From an uncultured Treponema sp. (GTDB lineage: Bacteria > Spirochaetota > Spirochaetia > Treponematales > Treponemataceae): a stretch of DNA of 64,000 bases. Of this stretch, positions 4,356-63,670 are shown one piece after another (positions within the stretch are counted from its first letter, which is position 1; every line of letters starts with the position of its first letter). The stretch is from positions 1 to 64,000 of the forward strand of contig CAMOIE010000004.1 of assembly GCA_946615905.1 (NCBI GenBank), written 5' to 3'. The position numbers were made by a program, and so were the translations under genes. The notes below the pieces were generated by a model. That model was not told the origin of the DNA and made no database searches. It saw only the letters and a program-made list of their open reading frames with translations.

Positions 4356-7300
4356 TTATTTATACAATTCCACCAACTTCTGCAAGTGAACAAATCTGTC
4401 TTTTGCAGCCTGTTCATTTCTGTCGAACAAGACTTTTGCGCGTTCGGGGAACTTGCGTGTCAGTGAAGAGTAGCGTGTCTCGTTGTTCAAGAATGCCTGG
4501 TAAGTTCCGTCGCCTTCTTTTGAAGTCAAAGTGAACGGATTCTTGCCTTCTGCCTTGAGTGCAGGGTTGAAGCTGAAGAGGTTCCAGTAACCGGCCTTTA
4601 CAGCAGCCTTCATCTCGTCCTGACAGTGGTTCATGCCGCCCTTAACTCCGTGGAGTTCACAAGGAGCATAACCGATAATCAGAGACGGTCCCTTGTAGGC
4701 TTCTGCTTCGCGGATGGCTTTGAGTGCCTGAGCAGGGTTTGCACCGAGAGCAATCTGGGCAACGTAAACGTAGCCGTAGCTCATAGCGATCTCTGCGAGG
4801 GACTTTTTGCCCATTTCCTTACCAGCAGCTGCGAACTGGCAGACTTCACCGATGTTAGAAGCCTTAGATGCCTGTCCACCTGTATTTGAGTACATTTCTG
4901 TATCGAATACCATAACGTTGATGTCTTCTCCAGAAGCAAGGACGTGGTCCAAACCGCCGAATCCGATATCATAGGCCCATCCGTCACCGCCCATAATCCA
5001 GACTGACTTCTTAGAGAGGTAGTCTTTCTTGGCGAGGATTTCTTTGGCTTCTTTTGAACCGTCTTTTTCGAGAGCGGCAATCAAAGCCTTTGCGGGTTCA
5101 ACGTTGTCGAGAGTTGAATCCTTTGTCTCCATGAACTTGTCGATTGCAGCCTTGAGGTCGCCAGAAGCGTTCATTGCGTTGAGCTTTTCAATCAAGCTCT
5201 CGCGGATGAACTTCTGTCCGTTGTACATACCAAAGCCGTGCTCAGCGTTGTCCTCGAACAAAGAGTTAGCCCAAGCCGGACCTTTCTTTGAAACTTTGTT
5301 GATTGTGTACGGAGCTGTAGCAGCCGGGCCGCCCCAGATTGAAGAACAACCTGTAGCGTTAGAGATGTACATGTGTTCGCCGAAGCACTGAGTAATCAGG
5401 CGGGCATAAGAAGACTCTGCACAACCTGCGCAAGAACCTGAGAACTCAAGGAGCGGCTGGTTGAACTGTGAGCCTTTAACAGTGTCATCTTTGAAGCCGG
5501 AATCTTCCTTCTTCGTAACATTGTCAACGAGGTAGTTCCAAGCGGGCTGTTCAGCAAGGCGTGATTCCTGCGGAACCATCTTGAGAGCCTGTACCGGACA
5601 TACTGTTGTACACTCACCACATCCCATACAATCAAGCGGAGATACAGCGATTGTGAACTTGTATTTGCCAGCCTTGGGTTTGAGGTCAACAGCTTTTCCA
5701 CCGTTCTTCTCAACTTCAGCAGCTTCTGCGTCTGTGAGGAGGTAGGGGCGGATTGTAGCGTGAGAACAAACGAATGCACAGTTGTTACACTGGATACATT
5801 TTGCAGAATCCCATTCAGGAACCATAACGGCTGTACCGCGTTTTTCGTAAGCAGTAGCGCCGAGTTCCCACTGACCGTCTGCGTTTGCTGTGAATGCAGA
5901 AACGGGGAGGCTGTCGCCGTCCATAAGAGAAACAGGGTTCATGATCTTCTCGACCATTTCGACTGTCTTCTTTTCGCCCTTGAGTGCGGGTTTAGCGGCA
6001 TCAGGAGCAGGATTTGCCCAGCTTTCTGGGATTTTGACCTCATGCAAAGCACCGGCACCCTGGTCGATGGCTGCATGGTTCATGTCTACGATGTCCTGAC
6101 CTTTCTTTGAGAATTTGGCAGTTGCCTTCTCTTTCATGTACTTGATTGCTTCCTCAGCAGGGAGTACGTTGGCCAGTTTGAAGAATGCTGACTGGAGAAC
6201 GGTTGATGTGCGTTTGCCCAAACCGATTTTTCCAGCGATGTCAACAGCGTCAACTGTGTAGACCTTAATCTTGTTGTCGTAGATGTATTTCTTTGAAGCA
6301 GCCGGGAGGTGCTTGTCGAGTTCTTCATCAGACCACTGGCAGTTAATAAGGAATGTACCTCCCTTCTTAACGTCCTGAACCATCTTGTAGCCCTTAACGA
6401 TGTATGACTGGTTGTGGCAAGCTACGAGGTCAGCCTGGTTGATGTAGTAAGGAGACTTAATCGGTTTGTCGCCGAAGCGGAGGTGAGAAATTGTGATACC
6501 ACCGGTCTTCTTTGAGTCGTACTGGAAGTAAGCCTGAATGTACTTGTCAGTGTGGTCTCCGATGATTTTTGTAGAGTCTTTGTTTGCACCGACTGTACCG
6601 TCACCACCGATTCCCCAGAATTTGCACTCGATTGTGCCTTCTGCGGCTGTGTTCGGAGCAGGTTTAACTTCGGGCAATGAAAGATTTGTAACATCGTCAA
6701 CGATTCCGACTGTAAAGCGTGATTTCGGCTCTGCTTTTGCAAGCTCTGTGTAGATTGCGAATACTGAGCTAGGCGGTGTGTCTTTTGAACCAAGTCCGTA
6801 GCGTCCGCCGCAGAGTTTGACATCGTTCATGCCAGCTTCGCGGAGAGTTGAGGCAACGTCGAGGTAAAGGGGTTCGCCGAGAGAGCCGGGTTCCTTTGTG
6901 CGGTCGAGAACAGCGACTTTCTTTGCTGTCTTCGGGAGTTTCTCAAGGAATTTAGCTGAAACCCACGGGCGGTAGAGGTGTACTTTAACAAGACCGACTT
7001 TCTCGCCCTGTTTTGTAAGGTAGTCAATAACTTCTTCTGCAACGTCACAGATTGAGCCCATTGCTACGATTACGCGGTCAGCGTCTTTTGCGCCGTAGTA
7101 GTCAAAGAGACCGTAGTTTGTTCCGAGCTTTTTGTTGATTTTCTCGATGTATTTCTCAACAACAGCGGGGAGTGCTTCGTAAACAGAGTTGCAAGCTTCG
7201 CGGTGCTGGAAGAAGATGTCTCCGTTTTCGTGTGAACCGCGCATTGCCGGATGCTCCGGGTTCAAAGCGTGGGCGCGGAAAGCTTCGACAGACTTTGTGT

Positions 7301-27100: not shown

Positions 27101-28306
27101 CTAAATATCAATTCTCAAGCTGACAGCTCCGCCGTAAACTTTAGTCTTAAAGTCATAGCTGGCACTTGCTTGCACATTGACTTTGAAGAAATCCAAGCCT
27201 AAACCACCATAAATCTGCGGTCGGACTTCCCAATTGCTGCTGGAACCACCAGAAAAATCGCTCGGCAGGATTCCCCAAGAAATTACATTCTTCATTTCAG
27301 TGCTGGAATCTGACAAAATCGAAGTCCAGTCAGCATGGATTTTCCAGTCGACATTGGTTTTTGTATAGAGGGCACGGCCTCCGATAAAGGGCACCAAGAA
27401 GAAAACTTTTGCAGAGGCCTGGGCTCCGGCAAAAAGAGTCGTGGCATCAAAATTCAGTTTGGCACTGGTCGGCGTTGAAGAACCAGATGAAGTCTCATTT
27501 TTTTTGCTGTCCTCAAAATAGACTTCACCCTTTGTGTAATATCCACCGCCAGTCAATGAAACAATCGTCTTTAATGGACCAAATCCCTTGTCAAAAATCC
27601 TATAACGCAAGTCTCCGCCAACAGAAAAATAGTCTACGGTAACAGGGTCAATCTTTTTATCCAAGGCATCGATTTTAGTAGTGTCAAAAGACATACATGT
27701 AAAACCAACATCAAAAGGAAGGAGAAAGCCGCCAACCCTGATGTCAGCAGTTGCAGTTGGGAAAGCAAGAGTGTCGTTCAAGCCCTTAGTGTCAATCGAC
27801 AGGGCATCAGCAGCAGACTTAAGATTTTTAATGTCTAAACTGGCAGCCCCGGCATTGATTCCAAAACCGAAATTCAAATTCGGAATAAAGTAACCAATCC
27901 AAGACTCGGCCCAAATATTCTGCAAGGCCTGGGCGTTGGGAATCGCATCTTCTAGACTTTCGCAAAAATCATTGATTCCATCGACTGCGGTCGTGTACGG
28001 ATTCGAGATGTGGTTCTTAGTCATAAAATCATCGTACTGGTTGTCCACGACAGTCTGGGCATCATTCAGAAGATTTTGAATATCAGACTGTGACTTGCCG
28101 TTGTTTGTCATGTAAGTCGACAAGGCTGATTCGATTTGGCTCTTGTTCTCGCTTACAATTGAAACCAAGTCGTTAGGAACATTAAAAGTGACCGTGCCAC
28201 CGGGTACAGTAAACGACATAGTTGTTGTGGATACCGCTGAAAGGGGCAAAGCGACAAGGGCAAAAAGTGTACTGGCAGAAATTAAAATCCTAAAAAAATT
28301 TCTCAT
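27101..28306 (-). CDS. putative outer-membrane beta-barrel protein
   Basis: 401 aa with a signal peptide (MRNFFRILISASTLFALVALPLSA). The N-terminal 100 residues are helical and Asn/Asp/Gln-rich; the rest alternates hydrophobic and polar residues in short strands with Gly and aromatic belts (WIGYFIPNLNFGFGINAGAASLD, FLLPFDVGFTCMSFD, YFSVGGDLRYRIFD, IYGGLGLDFFKVNVQASASYDF) and ends in a strand, GAVSLRIDI. This is the look of a treponemal outer-membrane barrel; no specific family is recognised and the ligand is unknown. GGAGG before the ATG. Monocistronic. Confidence 0.65.
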   Translation of the reverse strand: MRNFFRILISASTLFALVALPLSAVSTTTMSFTVPGGTVTFNVPNDLVSIVSENKSQIESALSTYMTNNGKSQSDIQNLLNDAQTVVDNQYDDFMTKNHISNPYTTAVDGINDFCESLEDAIPNAQALQNIWAESWIGYFIPNLNFGFGINAGAASLDIKNLKSAADALSIDTKGLNDTLAFPTATADIRVGGFLLPFDVGFTCMSFDTTKIDALDKKIDPVTVDYFSVGGDLRYRIFDKGFGPLKTIVSLTGGGYYTKGEVYFEDSKKNETSSGSSTPTSAKLNFDATTLFAGAQASAKVFFLVPFIGGRALYTKTNVDWKIHADWTSILSDSSTEMKNVISWGILPSDFSGGSSSNWEVRPQIYGGLGLDFFKVNVQASASYDFKTKVYGGAVSLRIDI

Positions 28307-28415: not shown

Positions 28416-30152
28416 CTAATTTTTGTAAGCCTGCTCATGGACTCCTGCGACTGCCCGGCCGCTTGGCTCGTTGGCGTTTTTCCAGGCTTCATCCCACTCA
28501 AGGGCTTTTGCTGTTGAGCAGGCGACGCTTGCCTCGTGCGGAACGGTCTTTGCGGCAGTCTCGCTTGGAAACAAGGAGGCGAAAATCTCGCGGTAATAGT
28601 ATTCTTCCTTGGTTGACGGCGTGTTCAGCGGAAAGCGGCGGGAACGGCTTGCAAACTGCGCGTCTGACACCCGGCTTTCGGCAAGTTTTTTGAGGGAGTC
28701 AATCCAGTCATAGCCAACTCCGTCTGAGAACTGCTCCTTTTGCCGCCAGCAGATTTCTTTTGGCAGGTAGTCCTTGAAAGCCTCGCGCAAAATCCATTTT
28801 TCAATTCTCTGACTTCCATCTGCCTGTTTTGAACACATTTTGTCGGCGGGATTTATGTTCATCGCAATATCGATAAATTCCTTGTCCAAAAATGGAACCC
28901 GTCCCTCGACTCCCCATGCGGCCAGCGACTTGTTCGCGCGAAGACAGTCGTACAAATGCAGCTTGCTGATTTTTCTGACCAGCTCCTCGTGAAATTCCCG
29001 GGCGTTCGGAGCCTTGTGGAAATACAAGTAGCCGCCGAAAAGCTCGTCGCTGCCTTCCCCGGAAAGAACCATTTTTATTCCCATCGATTTTATCACTCTG
29101 GCAAGAAGGTACATGGGGGTTGAAGCTCGGACTGTCGTGATGTCGTAGGTCTCGATGTGGTAAATCACGTCTGGCAGGGCGTCGAGTGCCTCCTGTACTG
29201 TAAAGTGGACTTCGTGGTGAACAGTTCCGATTGCCTTTGCGGCAAGACGGGCGGCCTTTAAGTCCGGGGAACCTTCAAGACCGATTGCAAAAGAATGCAG
29301 ACGCGGCCACCAAGCTCCTTCCGTGTCCTTGGATTCCACCCGCTTTGAGGCGAATTTCTGGGTGACTGCGGCGATTATCGAAGAATCCAAACCTCCGGAA
29401 AGAAGGACTCCATAGGGAACATCGCTCATAAGCTGTTTTTTGACAGCATCCTCAAGACCTGTGCGGAGCTTTTCTATTGAAGAAAGATTGTCCTTCACAT
29501 TCTCAAACGACTCCCATGAACGGTGATACCATTTTTCAGGCTTTTCCATATTGAATCCAGCTGCCTTGGCTCCCTTGCCTGAGACAAAATAAGAGCCGTT
29601 GGGGAACTCCTCAATTGAGACACAAACTCCTTCAAGAGCTTTCAACTCCGAGGCGACATAATAGCGGCCTTCACCGTCCCAGCCCTGATAGAGAGGAATC
29701 ACGCCGATTTCGTCACGGCCGATCACGTACAAGTCTTTTTTGGAGTCGTAGAGGGCGAATGCGAAAATACCGGAAAGTTCCTCAAGAAAATCCGCGCCTT
29801 TTTCCAAGTAAAGGGGAATAATCACTTCGCAGTCGGACTGTGTTTTAAAATCATATTTGCCCGCATATTCCGCCCTGATTTGCTGGTGATTGTAAATCTC
29901 TCCGTTGACGGCAAGAATTATCGTGCCATCGGAAGAGACGAGCGGCTGCTTGCCGGAAAGAGGGTCGACAATCGCAAGACGTTCATGGCTCAAAATCGCG
30001 TTTTCTCCGGTGTAAACGCCGCTCCAGTCCGGCCCCCGGTGACGGATTTTACGGGACATGTCCAAAACTTGAGTCCGCAGCTGAGTCCTCAAACCCACGT
30101 CAATCGGCTGAGAGCCGGAAGTCAAATCAAAAGCACCAACAAAACCGCACAT
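28416..30152 (-). CDS. asnB: glutamine-hydrolysing asparagine synthetase
   Basis: Makes asparagine from aspartate, ATP and glutamine. 578 aa: the N-terminal Ntn glutaminase begins at the nucleophile Cys2 (MCGFVGAFDL), with HERLAIVDPLSGKQPL and the NGEIYNH loop; the synthetase domain has the pyrophosphate loop LLSGGLDSSIIAAV (about 250) and LSGEGSDELFGGY (about 360). GGAGG precedes the ATG. The only promoter seen is 115 bp upstream and is followed by a 72-nt structured element ending in a terminator, so expression is expected to be set by read-through of that leader. Confidence 0.96.
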   Translation of the reverse strand: MCGFVGAFDLTSGSQPIDVGLRTQLRTQVLDMSRKIRHRGPDWSGVYTGENAILSHERLAIVDPLSGKQPLVSSDGTIILAVNGEIYNHQQIRAEYAGKYDFKTQSDCEVIIPLYLEKGADFLEELSGIFAFALYDSKKDLYVIGRDEIGVIPLYQGWDGEGRYYVASELKALEGVCVSIEEFPNGSYFVSGKGAKAAGFNMEKPEKWYHRSWESFENVKDNLSSIEKLRTGLEDAVKKQLMSDVPYGVLLSGGLDSSIIAAVTQKFASKRVESKDTEGAWWPRLHSFAIGLEGSPDLKAARLAAKAIGTVHHEVHFTVQEALDALPDVIYHIETYDITTVRASTPMYLLARVIKSMGIKMVLSGEGSDELFGGYLYFHKAPNAREFHEELVRKISKLHLYDCLRANKSLAAWGVEGRVPFLDKEFIDIAMNINPADKMCSKQADGSQRIEKWILREAFKDYLPKEICWRQKEQFSDGVGYDWIDSLKKLAESRVSDAQFASRSRRFPLNTPSTKEEYYYREIFASLFPSETAAKTVPHEASVACSTAKALEWDEAWKNANEPSGRAVAGVHEQAYKN

Positions 30153-30188: not shown

Positions 30189-30260
30189 AAAAAAGGCGCC
30201 TGCTTAGGGCAACTTATGCAAGAATGCATAAAAATTGCGCTAAACAGACACCTTTGTCTT
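30189..30260 (-). ncRNA. 72-nt structured leader RNA / attenuator upstream of asnB (copy A)
   Basis: Predicted transcript starts AAGACAAAGG at 30260. Outer helix GGUGUCUGUUUAG (30252-30240) pairs with CUAAGCAGGCGCC (30207-30195) and is followed by six U. Inside are UAGCGCAA and AAGUUGCCCU around an apical stem AUGCA/UGCAU. The copy at 48211-48282 has the same length and core but different helix bases that still pair. The T-run ends 36 bp before the asnB ATG with no room for a second promoter. It could be a riboswitch, attenuator or processed sRNA. The ligand is unknown. Confidence 0.75.
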
Positions 30261-30266
30261 GAAAAC

Positions 30267-30295
30267 AGATTAACGAAATGCAAAAAACTCGTCAA
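30267..30295 (-). promoter_or_regulatory. promoter of the asnB leader RNA
   Basis: Minus strand TTGACG (30290-30295), 17 bp, TAATCT (30267-30272). The predicted start, 7 nt downstream, is the first A of AAGACAAAGG. Confidence 0.8.
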
Positions 30296-46583: not shown

Positions 46584-48035
46584 TCAGATGACTTTGAACT
46601 GCTTTTCTCTGAAAGCTTCGACGGCCCAGACAAGCTGCATTCTGATGTCCTCAAAGTTGTTTTCCATTCCTTCGAGGGAAACTTGAATCGCGTCGGTGTC
46701 CTCGCCTTCACAATGGGCTGAATCCGAAAGCATCTCAAGAATTCTTGAGATGTGGGTATAGAGCTGTGAAAGCGTCACGAGTTCCTGCTGCGGAAACTGC
46801 TCCATATCATCACCGGCCAGGTCTACATCGTAAACCAGAGAGCCGACCGCTGAGTAAAGCTCCAAAGCCCTGTGCCTCAGCGAACCGATGGAAAAATCCG
46901 CAAAATAGTTGTAATGTTTTCTAAGTATATCATTGCGGTGCATTATTTGCAACGCAAATACTTGTCTCTCCTCAGGGGTGACATCCATGGACTTTGGCAG
47001 AAGGGTCTTCATCACGGAAGAGACATCGAGTTTTTGCTTGAAAAGCTGGTCTTTTATGCAGCAGTCGATTACATATTCTGGAAGTGCGAAAATCGGGATT
47101 CCACAGTCAGACCCATTGCCGTAGTCATTTTTATTCCATTCGCCGACGGCGGGAACGTCCTGACCGCGATACCAAAGTCGGGTTTCAACTCCGAAATATT
47201 CCAAGCCGACTTTTTTTGAGGAATCGATGAATTCGTGAATCGACGAGCAGTTCTCAACGCAAAGGGTATTTGAGAATTCATAAAAAACGTTGGCAAGCTG
47301 CTCCTCAATGCATGAACAAGGCCCCATCCGATTAAAAGAAAGCAAAAGTGACTTTTCAAGCTCCTCCTTCCATTTTTGCCGGAAAAAATCTCCCGAACTC
47401 ATTTCGAGCCGGTTCTTTTTGCGGCTGACAATCGGGAAAATCTCGACAATTCCCTTGTCCCAGTCCCGGACGCGGCAAAGGATTCTGTCGCCGTAGTGAA
47501 AGTCGAAGTCATGGAAGATTCTTTCCATAGATTTGCCGGTCAGGGAAACCTGCGGGGGCAGTTCAAAATCTGTTTCCGCAAGGCGAAGACCGTTATTGAC
47601 AGGATCGGCGGCGATGTACTGGGAGGCGTATTCAGTGCCGTAGAAGATAAAAAGGTCTTCCGCACCGATTGCTGTCGTGTGGAAAATCTTGTCCTCCAAA
47701 ATATGGCCGTTGTATTCAAAATTGATTGCACATGAGAGGATTTCGCTGTCGACAAAGGGCATACAGCGGTCGCCGGGGACTAACACGCCCTGACGGACTT
47801 CTTCTTCGGTCGGGAGAAATGAGAAAAACTTTCCGGTAAAGGCTCCTGCATGAGTCAGATAGAAATTTTTTTCCAAGGGAAAAACCCGCATGTCCATGTC
47901 GAGGAATTCAGTGACTTCTTCTACGCTTGCCCGGATTTTGAAATTTGCCAACAATTTCACCACGTCCTTGGCCGTAAATGGCGAAGGGTATGTACGGAGA
48001 AATTGCGTCATAATCTCTTGAAGCGAGCGTCCCAT
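46584..48035 (-). CDS. large hypothetical protein, about 483 aa
   Basis: Soluble mixed alpha/beta protein without signal peptide or membrane helix. The N-terminal 80 residues (LQEIMTQFLRTYPSPFTAKDVVKLLANFKIRASVEEV) look like a small helical, possibly winged-helix domain. The middle (YGDRILCRVRDWDKGIVEIFPIVSRKK) is beta-rich and could be an OB- or S1-like fold. I do not recognise the family. Start ambiguous: MGRSLQEI (48035) fits a -10 box six bases upstream, while MNMGRSL (48041) has AGGAG 13 nt away. Monocistronic, upstream of tkt. Confidence 0.65.
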   Translation of the reverse strand: MGRSLQEIMTQFLRTYPSPFTAKDVVKLLANFKIRASVEEVTEFLDMDMRVFPLEKNFYLTHAGAFTGKFFSFLPTEEEVRQGVLVPGDRCMPFVDSEILSCAINFEYNGHILEDKIFHTTAIGAEDLFIFYGTEYASQYIAADPVNNGLRLAETDFELPPQVSLTGKSMERIFHDFDFHYGDRILCRVRDWDKGIVEIFPIVSRKKNRLEMSSGDFFRQKWKEELEKSLLLSFNRMGPCSCIEEQLANVFYEFSNTLCVENCSSIHEFIDSSKKVGLEYFGVETRLWYRGQDVPAVGEWNKNDYGNGSDCGIPIFALPEYVIDCCIKDQLFKQKLDVSSVMKTLLPKSMDVTPEERQVFALQIMHRNDILRKHYNYFADFSIGSLRHRALELYSAVGSLVYDVDLAGDDMEQFPQQELVTLSQLYTHISRILEMLSDSAHCEGEDTDAIQVSLEGMENNFEDIRMQLVWAVEAFREKQFKVI

Positions 48036-48041
48036 GTTCAT

Positions 48042-48071
48042 AAAATAATAAATTCTCCTGCGAATCGTCAA
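48042..48071 (-). promoter_or_regulatory. possible leaderless promoter of the 483-aa gene
   Basis: Minus strand TTGACG (48066-48071), 18 bp, TATTTT (48042-48047), six bases, ATG 48035. A competing reading uses ATG 48041 with a distant AGGAG. Confidence 0.4.
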
Positions 48072-48175: not shown

Positions 48176-48204
48176 TTGACCTTTTTTACCGAAGTTGGTA
48201 GATT
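48176..48204 (+). promoter_or_regulatory. promoter of the 72-nt RNA, copy B
   Basis: TTGACC (48176-48181), 17 bp, TAGATT (48199-48204). The predicted start is the first A of AAGACAAAGG at 48211, exactly as in copy A. Confidence 0.8.
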
Positions 48205-48210
48205 TTATTT

Positions 48211-48282
48211 AAGACAAAGGCGTCTACTTAGCGCAATAATTGTGTCCAAAACACAAGTTGCCCTGAGTAGACGCCTTTTTTT
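48211..48282 (+). ncRNA. 72-nt structured RNA upstream of gdhA (copy B)
   Basis: Starts AAGACAAAGG. GGCGUCUACUUAG (48219-48231) pairs with CUGAGUAGACGCC (48263-48275), then seven U. The inner core UAGCGCAA...AAGUUGCCCU matches copy A at 30189-30260; the apical stem GUGU/ACAC and several outer pairs differ but stay paired. Between it and gdhA (48729) lie repeats and a separate -10 box, so here it may be a free small RNA as well as a distal leader. Confidence 0.75.
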
Positions 48283-48289
48283 GTGCGCC

Positions 48290-48388
48290 AGATAGGGAGC
48301 GACGGCGCGGGCTTTGCCCAAGCCGGAAAATCGCGAATAAACGAGCGATTTTAGCGAGTCTCGGTCTTGCCCCTGCAAGACCGCAAAA
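48290..48388 (+). repeat. structured 98-99-bp intergenic repeat, copy 1
   Basis: From AGATAGGGAGCGACGG to GACCGCAAAA, matching the minus strand of 62914-63011 at roughly 80% by eye. Three hairpins are conserved in position. Arms differ as pairs: AAATCGC/GCGATTT here against AAATTGC/GCAATTT there, and GGTCTTGC/GCAAGACC against GGCCCTGC/GCAGGACC. Confidence 0.8.
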
Positions 48389-48609
48389 GCGGCGACACTG
48401 GCTTTGCCCAAGCGCTAGGTAGCGAACGGCGGCGGAAGCCGCAAAATTGCGTGAGACGCAATTTTAGTGAGTCTCGCCAAAATCTGCGATTTTGGCGCGG
48501 TTGCGCTAGTGCGCTAGGCAATGGAAGCCCGGAGTTGCCGGGAAAACTTTCCCGGCAATGAGCGTTAGCGAAGGCTGGAACTGCCGACCCGCTTTGCGGG
48601 GAGCGCCCA
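48389..48609 (+). repeat. further hairpin repeat modules before gdhA
   Basis: 48389-48508 holds more inverted repeats (GCAAAATTGCG...CGCAATTTTAG, CCAAAATCTGCGATTTTGG). 48509-48609 has the TGACCCG-family plan: CAATGGAAG, the stem TTGCCGGGAAA/TTTCCCGGCAA, GAGCGTTAGCGAAGG, CTGGAACTGCCGACCCG and a closing GAGCGCCCA. No gene is seen. Confidence 0.6.
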
Positions 48610-48634
48610 AAAATTTATATTATTTTGGATTAAG

Positions 48635-48690
48635 GCATTCTCATTTAAAATGAAATGCGTTAATATATACTAAAGTGACTGAAGTATAAT
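48635..48690 (+). promoter_or_regulatory. gdhA promoter region with palindrome
   Basis: A 24-bp near-perfect palindrome (48635-48658, GCATTCTCATTT facing AAATGAAATGC) lies upstream of TATAAT (48685-48690). The -35 is weak (about 48660), which fits an activator- or repressor-dependent promoter. The predicted leader is about 30 nt. Confidence 0.5.
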
Positions 48691-48728: not shown

Positions 48729-50090
48729 ATGTCTTTCAATTTCACTATCAAGAACGCTTATTGCAAGCGCGTATGGGATGACCTTCAGGCCCGCTATGCA
48801 GACCAGGATCATTTTCTTCAGGCTGCCGGATTGGTTCTCGAAACAATTTCTCCGGTTGTTGACACTATGCCGGAGCTTGAGAACACAGCCGTTCTCGAAC
48901 GCTTTGTAGAGCCTGAGCGCGTAATTATGTTCCGCGTTCCGTGGACTGATGACCAGGGCAAGGCTCATGTAAACCGTGGCTTCCGCGTTCAGTTCAACTC
49001 AGCAATCGGCCCCTACAAAGGAGGACTCCGCTTCTCTCCCGAAGTTTCTCTCGATGTTTTGAAATTCTTGGGCTTTGAACAGGTTCTTAAAAATTCTTTG
49101 ACAACATTGCCGATGGGCGGCGGAAAGGGCGGCTCAGACTTTGACCCCCACGGAAAATCAGACGCTGAAGTTATGCGCTTCTGCCAGTCTTTCATGACAG
49201 AACTCTACCGCCATATCGGAGCTGACACAGACGTTCCTGCCGGTGACAAGGGCGTTGGTGGACGCGAGGTCGCATACATGTTCGGCCAGTACAAGAGAAT
49301 CACAAACCAGTTCACAGGCGTTTTGACAGGAAAGGGCTTGGATTTCGGCGGCTCTTTGATTCGCCCGGAAGCAACTGGCTACGGCTTGATTTACTTCGCA
49401 GAATGTATGCTCAAAAAAGCAGGAACAGACTTCAAGGGCAAAACCTGCATCATCTCTGGTGACGGAAACGTTGCCCAGTACGCTTGCCAGAAAGTCACAC
49501 AGCTGGGCGGAAAAGTCATCACACTTTCTGACTCAACAGGCTACATCCTCGATGAGGACGGAATCGATGCTGAGAAATTGGCTTACGTCATGGAATTCCG
49601 CGCCGCACATAAAAAGATTGACGAGTACGTCAAAAAATACTCAAAGGCAAAATTCTTCAAGGGCGAGAAACCCTGGGGAGTCAAGGCCGACTGTGCATTC
49701 CCCTGTGCAACACAGGACGAAATTTACATGGATGACGCTAAAAAACTCGTTGCAAACGGCGTAAAACTCGTTGCAGAGGGTGCAAACATGCCGACCCGTG
49801 CAGACGCAATCGAATTCTTGCAGCAGAACAAAGTTTTGTTCGCACCTGGAAAAGCGTCAAACGCCGGTGGTGTTGCAGTCTCAGGACTTGAGATGAGCCA
49901 GAACTCAGAGCGCCTCTCTTGGAGCCGCGAAGAAGTCGACGCAAAACTCAAGCAGATTATGACCACAATCCACGACAACGCCTACGAGACAGCGGAAAAG
50001 TTCGCCACAAAGGCCGACTACGTTTCCGGTGCCAACATCTACGGCTTCTTGAAAGTAGCAAGAGCTATGATGGCACAAGGTTTGGTGTAA
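48729..50090 (+). CDS. gdhA: glutamate dehydrogenase, hexameric NADP type
   Basis: Reversible amination of 2-oxoglutarate; main ammonium entry with asnB downstream of glutamine. 453 aa, the length of the small-subunit bacterial family: GPYKGGLRFSPEVSLDVLKFLGFEQ, catalytic-Lys motif LPMGGGKGGSDFDPHGKSD near 130, DVPAGDKGVGGREVAYMFGQYK and a Rossmann domain with CIISGDGNVAQYACQK. AGGGG 8 nt before the ATG. NADP preference is inferred from family resemblance only. Ends in a terminator; a 72-nt RNA element shared with asnB lies 446 bp upstream. Confidence 0.95.
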   Translation: MSFNFTIKNAYCKRVWDDLQARYADQDHFLQAAGLVLETISPVVDTMPELENTAVLERFVEPERVIMFRVPWTDDQGKAHVNRGFRVQFNSAIGPYKGGLRFSPEVSLDVLKFLGFEQVLKNSLTTLPMGGGKGGSDFDPHGKSDAEVMRFCQSFMTELYRHIGADTDVPAGDKGVGGREVAYMFGQYKRITNQFTGVLTGKGLDFGGSLIRPEATGYGLIYFAECMLKKAGTDFKGKTCIISGDGNVAQYACQKVTQLGGKVITLSDSTGYILDEDGIDAEKLAYVMEFRAAHKKIDEYVKKYSKAKFFKGEKPWGVKADCAFPCATQDEIYMDDAKKLVANGVKLVAEGANMPTRADAIEFLQQNKVLFAPGKASNAGGVAVSGLEMSQNSERLSWSREEVDAKLKQIMTTIHDNAYETAEKFATKADYVSGANIYGFLKVARAMMAQGLV

Positions 50091-63011: not shown

Positions 63012-63161
63012 GACCGGGTTTGCTTTAAAATCAACAACCCCGGGGCAAGCCCACGGGGTATGTTGGTTCGTAATAGGAATTGCAGTCAGGTTCAATACCC
63101 TTTTTACGCCCCAAGGGGCGGGGTATTAAACCCTCCGCACGAATAAAAAAGCCCGGATAAT
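63012..63161. repeat. GC-rich hairpin DNA between oppA and the tRNA genes
   Basis: No gene. Contains inverted repeats ACCCCGGGGC/GCCCACGGGGT (63038-63060) and GCCCCAAGGGGC (63109-63120), with GGTATTAAACCC beside it. Its relation to the neighbouring repeats is unclear. Confidence 0.45.
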
Positions 63162-63197
63162 CCGCGGCACAAAATACATCTAAATACCGTTGCTACC
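63162..63197. repeat. direct repeat, right copy
   Basis: Second copy of the 36-bp sequence at 62853-62888 (CCGCGGCACAAA-ATACATC then TAAATACCGTTGCTAC). It is followed by about 55 bp without recognisable features up to the tRNA gene. Confidence 0.85.
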
Positions 63198-63252
63198 TTC
63201 CGGTTCTCGCGGGGTTTTCTAGCGTACTTTTGCGCGGCATCCGGGCAAAAAG

Positions 63253-63338
63253 CGGAAAGAGGGGGATTCGAACCCCCGGTACCTTTTGGGTACACACGCT
63301 TTCCAAGCGTGCACCTTAAACCACTCGGACATCTTTCC
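63253..63338 (-). tRNA. tRNA-Ser, anticodon GGA
   Basis: 86 nt class II tRNA: acceptor GGAAAGA/TCTTTCC, anticodon stem CACGC/GCGTG around TTGGAAA, long variable arm (TGTACCCAAAAGGTACC), T loop TTCGAAT, discriminator G. CCA not encoded. Separated from the tRNA-Arg gene by a terminator-like hairpin. Confidence 0.96.
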
Positions 63339-63347
63339 AAAACTATC

Positions 63348-63378
63348 AAAAAAAAGACTGCTGATTAGAGCAGTCTTT
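63348..63378 (-). terminator. terminator-like hairpin between tRNA-Arg and tRNA-Ser(GGA)
   Basis: AAAGACTGCT/AGCAGTCTTT stem with eight T on the minus strand. It may limit expression of the last tRNA of the cluster. Confidence 0.8.
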
Positions 63379-63383
63379 CAATC

Positions 63384-63458
63384 TGAGACTGACACGGTTC
63401 GAACGTGCGACCTCCACCTCCGCAGGGTGGCGCTCTAATCCAACTGAGCTACAATCTC
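63384..63458 (-). tRNA. tRNA-Arg, anticodon GCG
   Basis: 75 nt: acceptor GAGATTG/CAGTCTC with one G-U, D stem GCTC/GAGC, anticodon stem CCACC/GGTGG around CTGCGGA, T arm GCACG-TTCGAAC-CGTGT, discriminator A. The anticodon reads GCG for codon CGC (and CGU by wobble). Bacteria usually use ACG deaminated to ICG, so this is an uncommon form. Confidence 0.9.
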
Positions 63459-63489
63459 ATTCAAATAGAAGCATTCTGGGCTTCATTCA

Positions 63490-63574
63490 CGGAAGCGACA
63501 GGAGTCGAACCTGCCGGGCCCTAATGGAACCCACGGATTAGCAATCCGGCGTATTACCGCTCTACCACGCTTCC
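63490..63574 (-). tRNA. tRNA-Ser, anticodon GCU
   Basis: 85 nt class II tRNA: acceptor GGAAGCG/CGCTTCC, anticodon loop TTGCTAA, long variable arm (GTGGGTTCCATTAGGGCCC), T loop TTCGACT, discriminator G. The outermost anticodon-stem pair is a C/T mismatch. Confidence 0.95.
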
Positions 63575-63583
63575 AAGGTTCTG

Positions 63584-63670
63584 CGGAGCGAGAGGGATTC
63601 GAACCCCCGATACCTATAAGGGTATAACGGTTTTCAAGACCGCCTCCTTCAACCGCTCGGACATCGCTCC
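63584..63670 (-). tRNA. tRNA-Ser, anticodon UGA
   Basis: 87 nt class II tRNA: acceptor GGAGCGA/TCGCTCC, anticodon loop CTTGAAA, long variable arm with TATACCCTTATAGGTAT, T loop TTCGAAT, discriminator G. First gene of the Ser(UGA)-Ser(GCU)-Arg(GCG)-Ser(GGA) cluster. Confidence 0.96.

Follow-up and report, generated by a model that had tools for sequence, protein, structure and literature searches.

Proteins with an ANTAR domain recognize hairpins whose six-base loop is marked by A at the first and G at the fourth position (A1 and G4; Ramesh 2012, PMC3369931). For EutV, antitermination requires two such hexaloops at a set distance, and the upstream hairpin, P1, is essential (PMC3369931, PMC8934654). 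The 2022 structure of EutV shows the protein contacting one hexaloop at a time, and its authors asked to what extent single hexaloops act in nature, supposing that they could do so where the time limit imposed by a transcribing polymerase is absent (PMC8934654). The main text of Ramesh 2012 reports many ANTAR leaders upstream of glutamate/glutamine synthase, Amt and PII genes, for instance in Desulfotomaculum, and names neither spirochaetes nor Treponema (PMC3369931). In Clostridium acetobutylicum, NitR is described as an ANTAR-type antiterminator of ammonia assimilation (PMC4676874). Literature searches returned no global nitrogen regulator for gut or rumen treponemes, and nothing relevant on ANTAR in connection with Treponema.

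The leaders analyzed here precede asnB and gdhA in a 64,000-nt stretch of DNA from an uncultured Treponema sp. (hereafter, the window). They resemble the eut leaders of Enterococcus faecalis in carrying an A1/G4 hexaloop hairpin that is also part of the terminator stem (PMC3369931, PMC8934654), and the Treponema protein has the ANTAR response-regulator architecture of EutV. Unlike the eut leaders, however, they possess one hexaloop, located at the 5′ end of the transcript, and whereas EutV is activated by phosphorylation, the Treponema receiver is degenerate. The targets of NasR, too, differ from the Treponema leaders, in which each terminator is paired with one hexaloop and P1 is lacking upstream; likewise, the nitrogen regulons in the main text of Ramesh 2012 were derived from a dual-hairpin model, in contrast with the single-hexaloop leaders of Treponema. 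AmiR of Pseudomonas aeruginosa shares with the Treponema protein a pseudo-receiver joined to an ANTAR domain, and both have His where EutV has Tyr164, but AmiR governs one amidase operon only and no nitrogen regulon. NitR, too, is an antiterminator of nitrogen assimilation whose gene lies beside glnA (gene order glnA-nitR in C. acetobutylicum), but its system includes an antisense RNA, and the likeness is one of gene position and role.

Results

Both leaders (Table 1) open with AAGACAAAGG at the predicted transcription start and close with the U-run of a terminator. Their coordinates, their 72-nt lengths, the spacing of their promoters and their folds are as first proposed from the sequence alone, and NCBIfam identifies asnB and gdhA as the adjoining genes, also as proposed. 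The folds are near-perfect hairpins (-36.8 kcal/mol for the asnB leader and -37.3 kcal/mol for the gdhA leader, with z-scores of -7.3 and -9.9 against shuffled sequence), and each promoter pair ends 6 nt from the start A. The -10 box of the asnB leader is weak, with three of six consensus bases, and a consensus promoter scan reports only the gdhA pair; the promoter-then-hairpin layout of the asnB leader recurs in most relatives. The asnB ATG lies 36 bp past the end of the T-run, and a separate asnB promoter within this gap, which the sequence-only reading had named as an observation against it, was not seen when the gap was scanned for promoter-like pairs. The distance from the leader to gdhA is 37–101 nt in those relatives that have a gdhA leader and 446 nt in the window, where the interval contains one weak promoter-like pair (48644-48671). 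A repeat-rich intergenic block (48300-48620) also lies between the leader and gdhA; it is possibly an inserted repeat that could uncouple or weaken gdhA control in this genome.

Table 1. Positions of the asnB and gdhA leaders and of the associated features in the window.
Feature	Position	Strand	Remarks
asnB-side leader	30189..30260	-	72 nt
Predicted asnB promoter	30267..30295	-	TTGACG, 17 bp, TAATCT (weak -10); predicted start A at 30260
ANTAR-type hexaloop hairpin, asnB leader	30246..30259	-	AGAC[AAAGGU]GUCU; covariation in relatives
Intrinsic terminator, asnB leader	30189..30255	-	16-bp outer helix, inner stem, U-run; 5′ arm begins in hexaloop
asnB, glutamine-hydrolysing asparagine synthase, regulated gene	28416..30152	-	NCBIfam NF006949, 877 bits
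gdhA-side leader	48211..48282	+	72 nt
Predicted gdhA leader promoter	48176..48204	+	TTGACC, 17 bp, TAGATT; predicted start A at 48211
ANTAR-type hexaloop hairpin, gdhA leader	48212..48225	+	AGAC[AAAGGC]GUCU; covariation in relatives
Intrinsic terminator, gdhA leader	48216..48282	+	5′ arm begins in hexaloop
gdhA, NADP glutamate dehydrogenase, presumed regulated gene	48729..50090	+	NCBIfam; 446 nt downstream of leader

The leaders are adjoined by reading frames of 495 and 401 aa (46584-48071 and 27101-28306, both on the minus strand), for which searches of Pfam and NCBIfam gave no match. A further hexaloop-terminator candidate at 4680 on the plus strand falls within an opposite-strand reading frame and was judged a chance occurrence. 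Toward the end of the window, a small SRP RNA and four tRNA genes form a tight cluster (63148-63670, minus strand).

The sequence-only reading had singled out an invariant core, UAGCGCAA...AAGUUGCCCU. A strict pattern of this inner core finds two copies in the genome of the window and none in 58 relatives, and the core was dropped as a functional element. Being limited to these two copies, it is a local similarity between them; the widely conserved element is the 5′ hairpin together with the terminator. A covariance model built from the two copies (R1) recovered a single real relative, located directly before asnB in a same-genus genome (G012). In that genome asnB lies downstream of glnA and of a gene for a small ANTAR-domain response regulator, and this neighborhood suggested that the 5′ end be read as an ANTAR hexaloop: in both window copies the 5′ hairpin (AGAC-AAAGGU/C-GUCU) has a loop with A1 and G4. 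A second, weak R1 match (in G028) is an ordinary terminator outside any nitrogen context. No family of Rfam (release 15) reaches its gathering threshold for the leaders, and the matches listed by E-value (mir-365, U5 and trpB) are mere hairpin matches far under threshold. An Rfam match, which the sequence-only reading had named as adverse, was thus not found, but the RNA does not belong to an undescribed class: its design is that of the ANTAR antitermination set out by Ramesh 2012 (PMC3369931).

Conservation of the hairpin was examined in the regions upstream of asnB in 26 same-genus genomes, picked by orthology and not by motif. A hexaloop hairpin with G4 lies shortly past the -10 region in 24 of the 26, with A1 in 20 and G1 in four, and in these 24 the terminator uses the 3′ arm of the hairpin as its own 5′ arm; leaders from closely related genomes do not count as independent observations. 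All five gdhA genes closest to that of the window (itself included; 90–100% identical) have a hexaloop leader, which is absent from the more distant gdhA genes examined. In an alignment of 27 sequences, with slid registers as controls, the covariation score is 0.429 for the small hairpin (slid registers ≤0.187) and 0.566 for the terminator (≤0.152). Since both helices covary, the shared arm has matching partner bases in each of two alternative folds, the signature of a switch. The terminator does not account for the covariation of the small hairpin, because the 5′ arm of that hairpin lies outside the terminator. With an arm in common and both helices covarying, hexaloop hairpin and terminator are mutually exclusive.

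A second covariance model, built on these leaders (R2) and combined with a simple scan, yielded about 100 leaders in Treponema (and Sphaerochaeta) ahead of nitrogen genes, named through NCBIfam and Pfam; the scan demanded G4, a C-G closing pair and three base pairs, and these features are thus no independent evidence in its matches. The link first proposed from the sequence alone, between an attenuator with a terminator helix and ammonia and glutamine assimilation, is borne out by covarying homologues almost exclusively before nitrogen genes. The genes preceded by leaders comprise asnB, glnA and glnN (glutamine synthetases I and III), gltB and gltD (large and small subunits of glutamate synthase), gdhA, amt (in one case fused to PII), carA, carB, purF, pyrG, dapF and an amino-acid binding protein. 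The genome of the window has five hexaloops of its own, before asnB and gdhA, as a tandem pair before a type III glutamine synthetase (near 72.9 kb of the same contig) and, near 77.6 kb, before gltB; the tandem pair and the gltB copy lie just beyond the window. Among named strains, the system is found in T. bryantii B25 and T. zioleckii kT3, and Sphaerochaeta sp. S2 has leaders before asnB and before genes whose names, read from protein starts only, are GSIII-like and glutamate synthase-like. Together, these ANTAR attenuators probably form a regulon for nitrogen assimilation in Treponema of the gut and rumen.

Some arrangements within this set depart from one leader per gene. Two or three single-hexaloop terminators stand in tandem before some genes (amt in L153, glnN in L166, gltB in L149), an arrangement that would multiply attenuation, and tandem leaders also precede a PII domain fused to an ammonium transporter (L160:3828-5546, plus strand). 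In L150 and L155, leaders lie ahead of separate frames matching the first or last part of carB, and in G015 the C-terminal half of carB has its own leader.

The genome of the window encodes a single ANTAR protein (PF03861, over cut-off), immediately after glnA. Leaders at E 0.001 or better occur in each of the 32 same-genus genomes that encode an ANTAR protein and in neither of the two near-complete (96–97%) same-genus genomes that encode none; among 15 genomes of the same order that lack an ANTAR gene, one has a match at E 0.001. Because the genomes are related, the Fisher value of this co-occurrence is descriptive only. Two fragmented ANTAR-less members of the genus (G007 and G013) have leaders nonetheless, and G062 and G065, which lie outside the genus and do have an ANTAR gene, show none at E 0.001. 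The protein matches Rv1626, AmiR and EutV and, in the alignment, has identical counterparts of EutV Lys143, Lys149, Glu160, Met172, Asn173 and Arg175, with Tyr164 replaced by His and Arg142 by Ile. Its receiver is degenerate: with a complete active site defined as acidic pair, Asp, Thr/Ser and Lys, the acidic pair is missing in the protein of the window genome and the catalytic set is incomplete across 29 aligned relatives. Phosphorylation of such a receiver is hence unlikely, and a partner protein or ligand appears more likely.

In folding of the growing chain, the first hairpin is complete once about 15 nt have been made and forms before the terminator. In the asnB leader this hairpin is favored up to about nucleotide 60 and is displaced only once the 3′ arm of the terminator emerges, so that a bound protein would have to hold it only briefly; in the gdhA leader it has a competing local alternative at some lengths. 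With the small hairpin forced, what remains of the terminator stem is no longer next to the U-run.

Discussion

The Treponema leaders combine the testable general features of ANTAR attenuators, namely an A1/G4 hexaloop, an exclusive terminator and an ANTAR gene in the genome, and control of the asnB and gdhA 5′ leaders by ANTAR-protein antitermination is very probable. From the anatomy of the leaders, their mutually exclusive helices, covariation and gene context, the co-occurrence with ANTAR genes and the absence of P1, all read from sequence, we infer binding, read-through, signal and direction of control as follows. Polymerase would start at the AAGAC end, and by default the transcript would fold into the long terminator and stop after about 72 nt. 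When active, the ANTAR protein, the sole one in this genome, would bind the first hairpin by its six-base loop as soon as this hairpin emerges; once held, the hairpin would take away the lower 5′ arm of the terminator, leaving the remaining stem apart from the U-run, and polymerase would continue into asnB or gdhA. The same switch would stand ahead of most genes of the genus for ammonia uptake, glutamine and glutamate synthesis and glutamine-using amidotransferases, defining a nitrogen regulon, and the signal would probably be nitrogen or glutamine status, perceived through the degenerate receiver rather than by phosphorylation. In treponemes of the gut and rumen, such a protein would be a candidate for the role of global nitrogen regulator. 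Several observations count against the ANTAR reading: the leaders of G007 and G013 and their absence from G062 and G065, the His and Ile substitutions, the two-hexaloop need of EutV, the distance of gdhA with its intervening weak promoter-like pair, and the weak -10 box of asnB.

The obligatory role of P1 in EutV-type systems (PMC3369931, PMC8934654) raises the alternative of a conventional dual-hexaloop leader, with the true start further upstream and a recruitment hairpin before the visible one, and a hairpin, UACC[GAAGUU]GGUA, does lie within the promoter spacer of the gdhA copy. Such an arrangement is nonetheless unlikely. Of 106 leaders, 79 have a promoter-like pair that ends 3–14 nt ahead of the hairpin, versus 9.9 in shuffles, and the median gap from the end of the -10 box to the hairpin is 8 nt, so that only about two bases would be transcribed ahead of the hairpin and no room would be left for P1. 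Moreover, with shuffled sequences as the sole baseline, hexaloop hairpins upstream of the leader hairpin are at chance level (13 vs. 9.7 expected), as are those within the linker range that defines P1, a few to 25 nt (7 vs. 8.0), and those downstream (12 vs. 10.2). With counts at chance and promoters abutting the hairpin, the dual-hexaloop motif of the EutV/NasR type was not found in these leaders.

It is likely that ANTAR antitermination in Treponema (and Sphaerochaeta) operates through a single hexaloop at the extreme 5′ end, with no recruitment hairpin, over a dozen or so nitrogen operons and with an unphosphorylated receiver, in which case the two-hexaloop rule of EutV would not be general. 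ANTAR attenuation is a known kind of control, but leaders with one hexaloop fall outside its dual-hexaloop definition. These leaders would be single hexaloops acting within the time limit of the polymerase, and about 100 one-loop leaders, some of them in T. bryantii B25 and T. zioleckii kT3, provide a natural and testable case of single-hexaloop sufficiency.

A covarying fold ahead of nitrogen genes would also suit a riboswitch sensing glutamine, glutamate, ammonium or a similar metabolite on a terminator platform, but this is very improbable and already largely refuted by comparison: length and sequence between the terminator arms vary freely, some leaders consist of nothing more than a hairpin of about 45 nt, Rfam offers no match and the sole near-invariant part is the ANTAR hexaloop. 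The sequence-only reading had left both a ligand and a protein as effector; the protein option is strengthened by the co-occurring ANTAR gene, and the ligand option is weakened by the want of a conserved aptamer-like core. Its further option of a free 72-nt small RNA, titrating the ANTAR protein or acting on other messages with neighboring genes incidental, agrees with the loop-carrying RNAs that terminated leaders would be and with the remote gdhA copy, but has minimal probability given that, in dozens of species, the same nitrogen genes have a leader a short distance ahead of their start codons, although titration of the ANTAR protein could be an added effect.

With regard to the signal, gene order offers only a suggestion that glutamine synthetase is the sensing partner of the ANTAR protein. 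Four same-genus genomes (G001, G010, G028 and G033) have two ANTAR genes each, and the second protein may read other leaders.
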